Source of the DNA: Marinobacter bohaiensis
GTDB taxonomy: Bacteria > Pseudomonadota > Gammaproteobacteria > Pseudomonadales > Oleiphilaceae
Direction: 5' to 3'
Assembly (NCBI RefSeq): GCF_003258515.1
Contig: NZ_QGEH01000004.1
Coordinates: forward strand, 186,001-250,000
DNA: 64,000 nt
The notes under the pieces are model-generated. The model saw nothing but the letters and a program-made list of their open reading frames with translations, did not search any database and was not told the DNA's origin. Every line of letters starts with the position of its first letter. The first letter of the stretch is position 1. A program made the translations under genes and the position numbers. Of the stretch, positions 11,317-61,383 are shown piece by piece.

Positions 11317-11577
11317 TTACGAGTTCAGGATGCGGATCGTCGCGGTGCCGTCCGCGGCCATGTCGCGCTTGTCCTTGCGCTCCCGATCGATAAAGCCCAC
11401 ACGCTCACCCTCGGGAACGCCGTGCTCTTTCTCGTAATACAGAACCGCTTCCATGCAGATCGAACGCTGCTCGTCCGAAATGGCACGGCCATCCGGCCAC
11501 TTGCCCAGCTCAACCGCCCGCCGCAGGCTCTTGTAAACCGTGGGGTCCAGGCGCTTGATCAGCTCGTCGTATGTCAT
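11317..11577 (-). CDS. yeaC: DUF1315 (YeaC) family small protein
   Basis: This acidic/basic mixed soluble protein has 86 residues and the family pattern MTYDELIKRLDPTVYKSLRRAVELGKWPDG seen across pieces of the N-terminal half. ICMEAVLYYEKEH follows. It ends 10 bp before the DUF2797 start and heads the yeaC-DUF2797-pepN operon. The function of YeaC is unknown; it may be a small regulator or chaperone of the neighbours, but nothing in the sequence shows this. Confidence 0.9.
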   Translation of the reverse strand: MTYDELIKRLDPTVYKSLRRAVELGKWPDGRAISDEQRSICMEAVLYYEKEHGVPEGERVGFIDRERKDKRDMAADGTATIRILNS

Positions 11578-11758: not shown

Positions 11759-11788
11759 TTGACAGGCGATAATGATAATGATTATCAT
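11759..11788 (+). promoter_or_regulatory. Sigma70 promoter of the predicted Fur-controlled sRNA
   Basis: A perfect -35 TTGACA (11759-11764) and -10 TATCAT (11783-11788, 5 of 6 consensus bases) are separated by 18 bp. The Fur box fills the spacer and covers the -10, a classic repression arrangement. The expected start site is near 11795. Confidence 0.8.
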
Positions 11789-11790
11789 TA
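11768..11790. promoter_or_regulatory. Fur box (iron-responsive operator)
   Basis: GATAATGATAATGATTATC (11768-11786) matches the 19-bp Fur consensus at 18 of 19 positions. A shifted register gives a perfect 9-1-9 inverted repeat, AATGATAAT-G-ATTATCATT (11771-11789). It lies in a gap with no recognisable protein gene to its right before a terminator, so its target appears to be an RNA. The yeaC promoter on the other strand starts too far away to be the obvious target. Confidence 0.92.
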
Positions 11791-11794
11791 ATCC

Positions 11795-11885
11795 CGTACC
11801 AAGTGAGAACGGTCGTTTCATTTGGTCTCTCTCATCAGGAGCTATATTAGGCTCATTTATGCCCCGCACTGCGGGGCTTTTTTTT
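11795..11885 (+). ncRNA. Predicted Fur-repressed small regulatory RNA (PrrF/RyhB-like class)
   Basis: About 90 nt run from the predicted start to the end of a T8 terminator, directly behind a Fur-covered promoter. No credible ORF with a ribosome-binding site lies inside. The transcript has a pyrimidine-rich, probably single-stranded stretch (TCTCTCATCAGGAGCTAT, around 11826-11843) before the terminator. The layout is that of RyhB or PrrF, which lower iron-protein synthesis when iron is scarce. I recall a CTCATCAGG-like segment in PrrF RNAs, but I cannot align it here. Existence and class are inferred from signals alone. Confidence 0.72.
11861..11885 (+). terminator. Rho-independent terminator of the sRNA
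   Basis: A GC-rich 7-bp stem (GCCCCGC / GCGGGGC, 11861-11877) with a 3-nt loop is followed by eight T residues on the plus strand. The T-run points rightward, so it serves the plus-strand sRNA and not the minus-strand glpG gene. Confidence 0.92.
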
Positions 11886-11941
11886 GCCTGCTCGATAGCC
11901 CTGACCGGACGAGCCTCCAGGTGACGGCGGACCCGACGCGC

Positions 11942-12802
11942 TCAGTCCCTCTTGCGCGCCGGCGGCGGCAATACGGCCAGCAGAAGCCCGGTCAACAGAC
12001 CGCCCAGATGCGCCTCGTTCGCCATCTCCCCCAGCCCCAGCATGCGCGTGAATGGCGTGAAGCCAATCACGATCCACACCAGCGACACCACGATCAGCGC
12101 CGGCGGGAACTGGAACCGGGGCCGGCGCTGCTGACTCAGCCAGCAGTAACCGAGGATGCCGTAGACCACACCGGACAGACCGCCGAACAGCGGCCCGGTG
12201 ACCAGGTACTGCAGGGTGTTGGCGGCCAGACTGATCACCAGCACCAGCAGGATCAGCCGGCGGCGGCCGTCGAACCATTCCACCTGGCTGCCCAGGAACC
12301 ACATCATCACTGCGTTGAAAATCAGATGCGGCCAGCTGAAATGCAGCAGGTCCGGCGTCAGCCAGCGCCACCATTGCCCCTGGGCCAGCGTGGCGGTAAG
12401 GGCGTCGAGCCGGTCGGCAAACGTGTCGAAGAAAAACGCGCGTGGGTCGGCATACATCAGGCCGGTAGCGAGCGGATCGCGCCCGAGACCGGTGAACAGG
12501 GTCACCAGGGCCGCAGCGATGATGATGCCCAGCACGACAGGCGCGTGACGCGGTGACGGCTGCCAGCGACCGTTGACGAACACCGGCGAGTGATTGGTCT
12601 CGTGGATCGCCTGACGGACTTCCGGGCGGGTGATGAACTGTTCGAGGGCTTCCAGTACCGGTTCGGCGTGGTCCTGGTTCGCCAGCCACAGCACCTGCTG
12701 ATCGCCCTCTTCCGTGATGCGGTGCTCCACGCCCTGCTCGCGCAGCCACTGGCTGAACTCGGCCAGGTTGGTGTCGGCCGATAGCTGTTTGATTCGGTAC
12801 AA
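11942..12802 (-). CDS. glpG: Rhomboid intramembrane serine protease GlpG
   Basis: The 286 residues contain a cytosolic N-terminal domain (about 1-85) and a six-helix rhomboid core. Catalytic Ser210 lies in GGLSGVVYG and His265 in ANEAHLGGLL, close to Ser201/His254 of E. coli GlpG. HFSWPHLIFN (about 154-163) is the helix-2 motif. It cleaves membrane proteins within the bilayer. The start is a TTG at 12802 with a GAGGT ribosome-binding site six bases upstream; no ATG fits the N-terminal domain as well. It follows the phosphoesterase gene by 4 bp, so the two are co-transcribed. Confidence 0.95.
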   Translation of the reverse strand: MYRIKQLSADTNLAEFSQWLREQGVEHRITEEGDQQVLWLANQDHAEPVLEALEQFITRPEVRQAIHETNHSPVFVNGRWQPSPRHAPVVLGIIIAAALVTLFTGLGRDPLATGLMYADPRAFFFDTFADRLDALTATLAQGQWWRWLTPDLLHFSWPHLIFNAVMMWFLGSQVEWFDGRRRLILLVLVISLAANTLQYLVTGPLFGGLSGVVYGILGYCWLSQQRRPRFQFPPALIVVSLVWIVIGFTPFTRMLGLGEMANEAHLGGLLTGLLLAVLPPPARKRD

Positions 12803-17232: not shown

Positions 17233-19353
<2,121 letters not shown>

Positions 19354-60383: not shown

Positions 60384-61358
60384 TCAGACCTCGAATTCCA
60401 TGATCCGCTGGTTGATGAAATCGAAGGTGAAACTCTTGGAACGCATGCGGCGCTCCAGAATGTCCGCCAGTTTGTCCAGACGCTTGGGCACGGCCATCAT
60501 CTTGTCCTGGGCTTCGCGGCCCGCCGCGTCCACCGGCGTCAGGTCGGCGATGCCCCAGCTGTCCAGGCACTCCTGGACGACTTTGCGGTAATCGCGCGGG
60601 CCATAGATGTTGGCGCGGTGCACCACGTCGGCCATGTCGTCGTAGCCGGCGATGTTGTGACCCGGCATCGCCAGGCGCGGCATGACTTTCAGCGCCGACT
60701 GCATCGCCTTTGTGCTGTCCACTTCCAGCAGCCCGCGGAAGGCGTCGCGATAGAAACGGAAATGACGGGATTCGTCCGCGGCGATGTGGCCCAGCAGGCG
60801 CTGGATCACCGGGTCGTACTTGGCCGCGATCTTGGCGGTGTTGGCGTGGGCAGACTGGGTGGCGCGTTCCTGCAGGCTGGTGTAGGCCAGCAGCTGGTAC
60901 GGGTCGTCGTGCCAGTCCGGGTCGAAACCGGCTTCCAGATAGAGGTACTGGAGCTTTTCAAAGGCTTCCATATTGAACACACGGGAGTCGCGCACGTAGT
61001 CGTGCAGGGCGCAGCCATGGCGGTCTTCCTCGGCGGTCCACAGGAAGTTCCAGCGCTCCCAGGCGTTGCCGGTACCCAGATGCACCGCAATCAGGCGATG
61101 GAAATGCGGCAGCCCTTCTTCGGTCAGCAGGTTCAGGGCCAGGGAAACACGCACCGAATCCGGCAGACCACGGGCCCGCTCCTGCAGATCCTGGATGTAC
61201 TTGATCTGTTCAGCGGTCATGCCCTCACTGGCGGGCAGGAATTCGCTGGGCATCCACAGGCGCCGCTCGTCGATATGGCGCTGCATCAGTTCCTCGACCA
61301 GAGGCTCCAGCGACGCCAGGACCTCTCTCTTTTCTTGCACTTCAATCGCCGTAGCCAT
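60384..61358 (-). CDS. Acyl-ACP desaturase (di-iron)
   Basis: The 324 residues belong to the soluble acyl-ACP desaturase/ferritin-like family. Di-iron ligands are Glu80 or Glu81 (LLTEEGLPHF), Glu111 and His114 (EEDRHG), Glu164 (QERAT), and Glu196 and His199 (DESRHF). They insert a cis double bond into saturated acyl-ACP, adjusting membrane fluidity. GAGAGGAGA precedes the ATG at 61358. ATGTGCACAT, a perfect palindrome, sits 26 bp upstream and may be an operator. Homologues are common in Marinobacter and actinobacteria. Confidence 0.93.
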   Translation of the reverse strand: MATAIEVQEKREVLASLEPLVEELMQRHIDERRLWMPSEFLPASEGMTAEQIKYIQDLQERARGLPDSVRVSLALNLLTEEGLPHFHRLIAVHLGTGNAWERWNFLWTAEEDRHGCALHDYVRDSRVFNMEAFEKLQYLYLEAGFDPDWHDDPYQLLAYTSLQERATQSAHANTAKIAAKYDPVIQRLLGHIAADESRHFRFYRDAFRGLLEVDSTKAMQSALKVMPRLAMPGHNIAGYDDMADVVHRANIYGPRDYRKVVQECLDSWGIADLTPVDAAGREAQDKMMAVPKRLDKLADILERRMRSKSFTFDFINQRIMEFEV

Positions 61359-61383
61359 GTAGCTCTCCTCTCATCGAACCTTT

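Follow-up and report, generated by a model that had tools for sequence, protein, structure and literature searches.

A predicted iron-responsive small RNA encoded between yeaC and glpG in Marinobacter

The window analysed here, a 64,000-nucleotide stretch of the Marinobacter bohaiensis genome, contains an intergenic interval flanked by two genes of the minus strand, a divergent yeaC-like gene and a convergent glpG. The name YeaC is that of a preliminary description of this DNA, the domain found being DUF1315, and glpG encodes a rhomboid-family protein; the position between yeaC and glpG given in that description is confirmed. On the plus strand, a promoter, a Fur box and an intrinsic terminator delimit a predicted small RNA (sRNA) directed away from yeaC and towards the 3′ end of glpG. 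The features of the locus are as follows.

11317-11577, minus strand: yeaC-like gene (DUF1315), divergent neighbour (ORF list, domain match)
11759-11764, plus strand: -35 hexamer TTGACA (promoter scan)
11773-11787, plus strand: Fur box, perfect 7-1-7 TGATAATGATTATCA, in a longer AT-rich run at 11768-11789 (motif scan)
11783-11788, plus strand: -10 hexamer TATCAT, overlapping the Fur box (promoter scan)
11795-11885, plus strand: predicted sRNA of ~90 nt, its start placed from the -10 hexamer and its end from the terminator
11798-11826, plus strand: stem-loop I, 11798-11805 pairing with 11819-11826 (folding and alignment)
11827-11838, plus strand: unpaired seed CTCTCTCATCAG, predicted to pair with mRNA, each position invariant or at least 90% conserved in 48 rows
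11839-11854, plus strand: hairpin II, GAGC (11839-11842) pairing with GCTC (11851-11854) (folding and alignment)
11861-11885, plus strand: intrinsic terminator, 7 GC pairs and T8, with both-sided changes at 3 of the 7 pairs (terminator scan)
11942-12802, minus strand: glpG, rhomboid family, convergent neighbour (ORF list, domain match)

The two promoter hexamers match 11 of 12 consensus bases across a spacer of 18, in agreement with the promoter originally proposed. The Fur box had been placed within this spacer; the perfect TGATAATGATTATCA indeed takes up most of it, and in addition overlaps the -10 hexamer. Two promoter-like sites occur in 1,601 bases, compared with a mean of 0.6 in shuffled sequences. 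Throughout the 64 kb, the only two sites with three or fewer mismatches to the Fur box are both registers of the box at 11773-11787, against a mean of 0.26 such matches in shuffles of the window. The rho-independent terminator (GCCCCGC-ACT-GCGGGGC at 11861-11877, then T8 at 11878-11885) ends at 11885, some 90 nt downstream of the promoter, as first described; terminator-like sites are frequent in shuffles (mean 1.3, against two observed), so that the terminator by itself is unremarkable. In common with RNAs of the RyhB/PrrF class, the locus places a Fur box over a promoter and, judged from its sequence and conservation, would yield a stand-alone non-coding transcript with an intrinsic terminator and no conserved ORF, which bears out the RyhB/PrrF-like architecture suggested earlier.

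The predicted 92-nt transcript folds with an energy of -32.6 kcal/mol, compared with -19.5 (sd 2.7) for shuffled sequences (z -4.8; 0 of 200 as good), and its unpaired core, UCUCUCAUCAG, is invariant in 48 aligned rows. The structure alignment comprises 42 rows, six more divergent rows of the 48 having been left out, and in it the three helices are paired in 99.7% of cells, against fewer than half for slid versions. Twenty-five cells in these 42 rows are changed on both sides of a pair, compared with 7.4 in shuffles, none of the 500 reaching 25; all lie in the terminator, with stems I and II showing one-sided changes only, within Marinobacter. A covariance model, R1, which was built here without promoter or Fur box, matches 11796-11884, this sequence being among the model's own rows.

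Comparison across genomes shows that the Fur-overlapped promoter, the predicted three-helix RNA with its invariant unpaired core and the terminator occur together at a single conserved locus in Marinobacter and in some relatives. A 171-base query gave matches in 21 of 58 genomes, the source genome included. In 13 of these, again with the source genome, the match exceeded 100 bases (L001-L013), the remainder being short pieces of Fur box or terminator. All 13 long matches lie between yeaC and glpG, and when aligned they are nearly constant over TCTCTCATCAGGAGCT and its surroundings and differ in their flanks. A scan for the exact core in a collection holding one genome per species returned 73 loci, two of which (L071 and L118) have neither a Fur box nor the neighbouring genes and were rejected as chance. 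The 71 true loci, 70 of them single-copy, hold 72 copies and are assigned by record title to Marinobacter (68), Tamilnaduibacter (1), an uncultured Oleiphilaceae bacterium (1) and a metagenome-assembled genome (MAG) labelled Halomonas (1). Among the 72 copies the Fur box has no mismatch in 6, one in 55, two in 10 and three in 1, and TTGAC or TTTAC stands 13-14 bases before the start of the box in 71. Downstream, glpG is present in all 72; upstream, yeaC is present in 70, the two copies in which it was not seen (L086, L117) both lying near a locus end. At the same locus in distant relatives (L040, L042, L043, L045, L050, L051, L080) the Fur box, CTCTCATCAG and the T-run are kept and the stem sequences differ. 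A Fur box followed 25-55 bases on by CTCATCA was found in 21 of 58 genomes, the source genome included (20 if G009, where the match is chance-like, is dropped), and the reversed pattern in none of the 58; three of its 23 places (L357, L374, L375) are chance-like, and the strict form of the pattern fails to pick up G005, although the RNA is present there.

A few loci call for separate mention. In Marinobacter xestospongiae (L095:2751-3075) the sRNA is duplicated, with 233 bases between the copies, an arrangement reminiscent of PrrF1/PrrF2, which lie in tandem in P. aeruginosa. The MAG labelled Halomonas (L069) has a Marinobacter-type sRNA together with glpG, and its label may therefore be wrong. 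In G015 (L049), a near-perfect Fur box is followed by an RNA-like stretch and a T-run, but the CTCATCA core is missing; this may be an unrelated iron sRNA.

At gathering score, Rfam holds no family that matches the sRNA locus, the single match in the window being a tRNA elsewhere, nor one that matches any of ten related loci. The comparison with known families proposed in the preliminary description was carried out, and PrrF (RF00444) proved the best of them at 33.5 bits (E 0.0003), far below its gathering cut-off of 90. RyhB (RF00057) reached 15.7 bits over the last 38 bases only, against a cut-off of 55, and other families (anti-hemB, STnc100, GcvB and others) fell, like RyhB, far under their thresholds, the matches being due mostly to the terminator. 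The predicted RNA is a new sRNA family, and perhaps a divergent homologue of PrrF.

How close this kinship may be was assessed in both directions. The PrrF model matched 30 of the 58 genomes at E ≤1, one of them above the cut-off; three of 14 unrelated control genomes also match it weakly, so weak matches alone mean little. Conversely, R1 was run over 390 genomes of the order. Within the window's family, 17 genomes scored 88-112 bits and an eighteenth (G016) 55.6 bits. The next scores, 39.6-39.7 bits (E 1e-6 per genome at 39.7), came from three members of a different genus, which we take to be Pseudomonas; in these three, the matched loci read ATCTCCTCATCAGGCTAATCACGG behind Fur-like sites and are PrrF. 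At E ≤0.01, R1 matched 100 of the 390 genomes, many of them probably by chance: of 32 loci inspected (L148-L179, some representing the same place), a pyrimidine-CATCA core is present in 14 and absent from 18. R1 also detects tandem arrays in other families of the order; they bear CTCTCTCATCAAGCTAATCACGG, which is intermediate between the core of Marinobacter and that of PrrF. These arrays hold five, three, two and two related cores (CTCTCATCAA(A)GCTAATCACGG) in L161 (G290), L160 (G136), L162 (G073) and L177 (G396), respectively; some copies have Fur-like sites, and L160-L162 are under the Rfam PrrF cut-off.

The reciprocal but weak matches, together with the intermediate cores found elsewhere in the order, are compatible with common descent with PrrF, and the relation is possibly, even probably, one of distant kinship rather than membership. 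The stronger proposal, that the RNA is PrrF itself, an orthologue missed by the Rfam model, is compatible with the explanation preferred here and merits consideration, even if we judge it rather unlikely. PrrF is the best Rfam family for the locus, its model reaching up to 44.5 bits in relatives, and R1 recovers PrrF-type genes at 39.7 bits although it contains neither promoter nor Fur box. CUCAUCA is shared, and acnB, listed with sdhD among PrrF-dependent genes of P. aeruginosa in the relevant passages of PMC2851614, is also a predicted target here. Against this, the score lies under the gathering threshold and is inflated because the model includes the Fur box region; three of the 14 controls match weakly as well. 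The PrrF model core, CUCAUCAG-GCUAAUCACGG, is shared only in its CUCAUCAG part, the rest being GAGCU, and there is no counterpart of the GCUAAUCACGG block or of the two 5′ hairpins of PrrF, where the present RNA has the one stem I. Where PrrF reads UCAGGCUAAUCACGG, the Marinobacter RNA reads UCAGGAGCU; the latter is usually present as one copy (70 of 71 loci). Both lie behind a Fur box over the promoter and end at an intrinsic terminator. The neighbours here are yeaC and glpG, whereas those of prrF are others. In length, PrrF1 and PrrF2 measure 114-116 nt in the same passages of PMC2851614, against ~90 nt for this RNA, and the pertinent section of PMC4211561 describes the discovery of PrrF through a Fur site and a terminator in intergenic DNA, the same kind of search as that which singled out this interval.

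With RyhB of the enterobacteria the RNA would share its mechanism, being predicted to be Fur-repressed and iron-sparing with sodB and similar genes as targets; it differs in sequence, as the 15.7-bit match confined to the last 38 bases indicates. ArrF, NrrF, HrrF and BrrF, which are Fur- or iron-regulated sRNAs, belong to the same functional class and were compared by sequence through those members that Rfam holds.

Far less probable than an identity with PrrF is the notion that the Fur box controls the yeaC-like gene on the other side, the terminator being incidental. yeaC does lie upstream on the other strand, at a median of 107 bases from its aligned start to the RNA core in the scanned copies. 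The -35/-10 pair nevertheless faces away from it, the sequence that follows the box shows high conservation, the terminator, being on the plus strand, is not that of glpG, and in the window 196 bases separate the box from yeaC; a second role of the box, for yeaC, is possible. That the interval encodes a small protein under Fur control, or an RNA of dual function, is barely credible. A 50-aa frame exists (11772-11924), but its start codon lies within the Fur box, ahead of where transcription could plausibly begin, and the spacing in relatives shifts out of frame. Although 10 of 42 rows contain a closed frame of 14-18 codons, the other 32 have no closed ATG/GTG frame within the predicted transcript, and the distance from core to terminator is spread over the three phases (18, 14 and 10 of the 42 rows); a coding gene was rejected on these grounds. 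The earlier statement that no ORF lies between promoter and terminator consequently stands in the sense that none is conserved, and an in-frame protein conserved across relatives, which would have told against an RNA, was looked for in the 42 rows and not found.

Both proteins on which such an RNA would depend are encoded in the genome, Fur with a match of 147 bits and Hfq with one of 103 bits. Potential targets were sought by fitting the 20-base seed region to 365 predicted gene starts of the same genome (the window and a further 400 kb), which were picked by a simple script and include some spurious frames. The best fit, at -28.4 kcal/mol, is to the start of a 2Fe-2S subunit gene; a FadH-type oxidoreductase ranks 6, SufB 10 and a fatty-acid desaturase 13, and of candidates chosen by name fdsG ranks 3, acnB 12, sodB 15 and sdhC 40 of the 365. 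Two predicted sites lie within the window.

19309-19320, minus strand: predicted target site GATGAGGAGACC, immediately upstream of the FadH-type oxidoreductase gene (17233-19305, minus strand)
61361-61375, minus strand: weaker predicted target site GATGAGAGGAGAGCT, before the fatty-acid desaturase gene (60384-61358, minus strand), assessed in the source genome

Iron proteins make up 4 of the 14 Pfam-annotated genes in the top 20 starts and 1 of 25 in 40 random ones (one-sided Fisher ~0.05, by hand), a weak enrichment in which 6 top and 15 random genes without a Pfam match were dropped, the genes were judged after the list had been seen, and the iron labels, in particular those of FadH, the desaturase and a thiouracil desulfurase, are our own presumption. 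Pairing scores in general are inflated because Shine-Dalgarno sites suit any CU-rich RNA. None of 400 shuffled seeds fitted sodB, sdhC and acnB jointly as well as the real one. Singly, the fit was equalled by 0 of 400 for sodB and 1 of 400 for acnB, and by 23 of 400 for sdhC; of the targets originally proposed (sodB, acnB and sdh), the first two are favoured by this test and sdhC fares weakly.

Target pairing also differs between genomes with and without the RNA. The sequence CTGATGAGGG precedes acnB in 8 of 8 genomes labelled as RNA-bearing, and CTGATGAG in 5 of 16 others. Median pairing energies are -20.9 with the RNA (9 genomes) and -15.4 without (13) for acnB (p 0.0002), -20.4 (13) and -12.2 (15) for sodB (p 0.00006), and -22.4 (11) and -14.0 (7) for fadH (p 0.015), p values that are too good because related genomes are not independent. 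In this comparison two genomes with PrrF formed neither group, and G009 went into the group without the RNA even though a distant form occurs in other genomes of its genus. The loci used came from 24 of 38 matching genomes for acnB, 30 of 30 for sodB and 20 of 37 for fadH. The correspondence has exceptions on both sides. Among RNA-bearing genomes the fadH site is missing in G016 and G023, and the sodB site in G023; in three genomes without a detected RNA the acnB site is present before the start as (C)TGATGAGG (L277 in G013, L274 in G019, and L288 in G043, where the first C is missing), and these may hold an undetected PrrF-like RNA. The start of a gene that we take to be fdsG-like (L240, L298-L302) bears CCTGATGAGAG, which matches the seed over 11 bases; within it, GATGAGA is kept in all five genomes with a matching gene out of six of the same genus, the source genome included, and the site is absent in G006 and G013. 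Whereas pairing with acnB, sodB and fadH was predicted with controls, that with fdsG was predicted without a shuffle control. Another exact 11-mer match, at the end of a presumably sigma-factor-like gene (L242), is probably due to chance, about two being expected per genome (by hand), and the same doubt attaches to the fdsG match, except for its place.

Conservation over Marinobacter, structure, the presence of Fur and Hfq, and the target sites together support, without proving, the iron-responsive sRNA that the preliminary description had predicted. We consider it highly likely that the interval forms a gene of its own, encoding a trans-acting sRNA of ~90 nt, blocked by Fur when iron is available and pairing through its core with mRNAs of iron enzymes, similar to RyhB and PrrF and possibly a distant relative of the latter. 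In the presence of iron, Fe-Fur would block the sRNA promoter. When iron is lacking, the sRNA would be made and, with the help of Hfq, its core UCUCUCAUCAG would pair with mRNAs of iron-using enzymes (acnB, sodB, fadH, fdsG and others) at their ribosome-binding sites. These mRNAs would then no longer be translated and would be targeted for decay, so that iron is spared. The sRNA very probably shuts down iron-using enzymes under iron scarcity. Marinobacter is a common marine genus of iron-scarce habitats, and it gains here a candidate iron-sparing RNA with a testable list of targets; PrrF-like cores moreover extend past what the Rfam PrrF cut-off accepts. No iron sRNA of Marinobacter was found in open-licence papers on PrrF, RyhB, Fur box sRNAs and iron limitation, PMC11277574 among them, as represented mainly by their titles and abstracts.

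The seed of this RNA also appears in viral DNA. Phage contigs carry its 13-14 bases, CTCATCAGGAGCT(A), as an attachment core, and attP, attL and attR forms were all found. The equivalent in the window is the following.

11831-11844, plus strand: CTCATCAGGAGCTA, counterpart of the phage attachment core of relatives (comparison with phage contigs; no prophage here)

The exact-core pattern occurs once in IMG/VR, in L129 (3415-4955), which represents attL: 126 host bases that match the M. flavimaris locus (L121) with 100% identity, and that span promoter, Fur box, stem I and seed, give way to foreign DNA with tyrosine integrase, terminase and portal genes. The attP form is L394 (4391-5825; also L377), which encodes an integrase 99% identical to that of L129 and has CTCATCAGGAGCTA in the same place, with no host DNA recognised beside it. 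L399 (13532-13690), a second contig from the sample of L129, represents attR; its left arm is 99% identical to that of L394 over 2,000 bases and is followed by the seed and then by host DNA, 159 bases from the core on that are 98% identical to the M. flavimaris locus and comprise hairpin II, the terminator and the end of glpG. L404 is attR-like, with the seed minus its last A, and L402 and L407 are attP-like, with integrases 62-63% identical. Six of the 12 viral matches to the core are thus attachment sites, and the other six (L398, L400, L401, L403, L405, L406) were rejected as chance.

Integrase patterns matched 39 stretches, 18 of which encode relatives, and the core was found in L376 (on the same contig as L129), L377, L379 and L385 among these 18; several others begin at the integrase and so lack upstream DNA. 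The core is absent upstream in two (L383, L387) of the six viral integrase loci whose upstream DNA was examined, and the collection of phage records gave no match to the interval. Three Pseudomonas phages with L129-like integrases (L395-L397; H1, H3 and H5 of 342 records) have no CTCATCA[AG] in the stretch read, leaving the idea of phage integration into PrrF unsupported. None of the paper titles listed bears on phage attachment in such RNAs.

The seed is likely to be the chromosomal attachment site of several temperate Marinobacter phages, in which case a lysogen would retain the promoter, Fur box, stem I and seed of the host and make a hybrid RNA ending in a phage 3′ half, with a stability, Hfq binding or targets that may differ. 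Such a hybrid may be made and work in lysogens. The phages, as suggested here, dock at such an RNA yet keep its seed. Downstream of the seed, L394, L402 and L407 each have hairpins of phage origin and, 123-126 bases on, a T-run, so that integration would swap the 3′ half and keep promoter and seed; that phages should bring a replacement 3′ hairpin and terminator is as expected of an RNA gene worth keeping.
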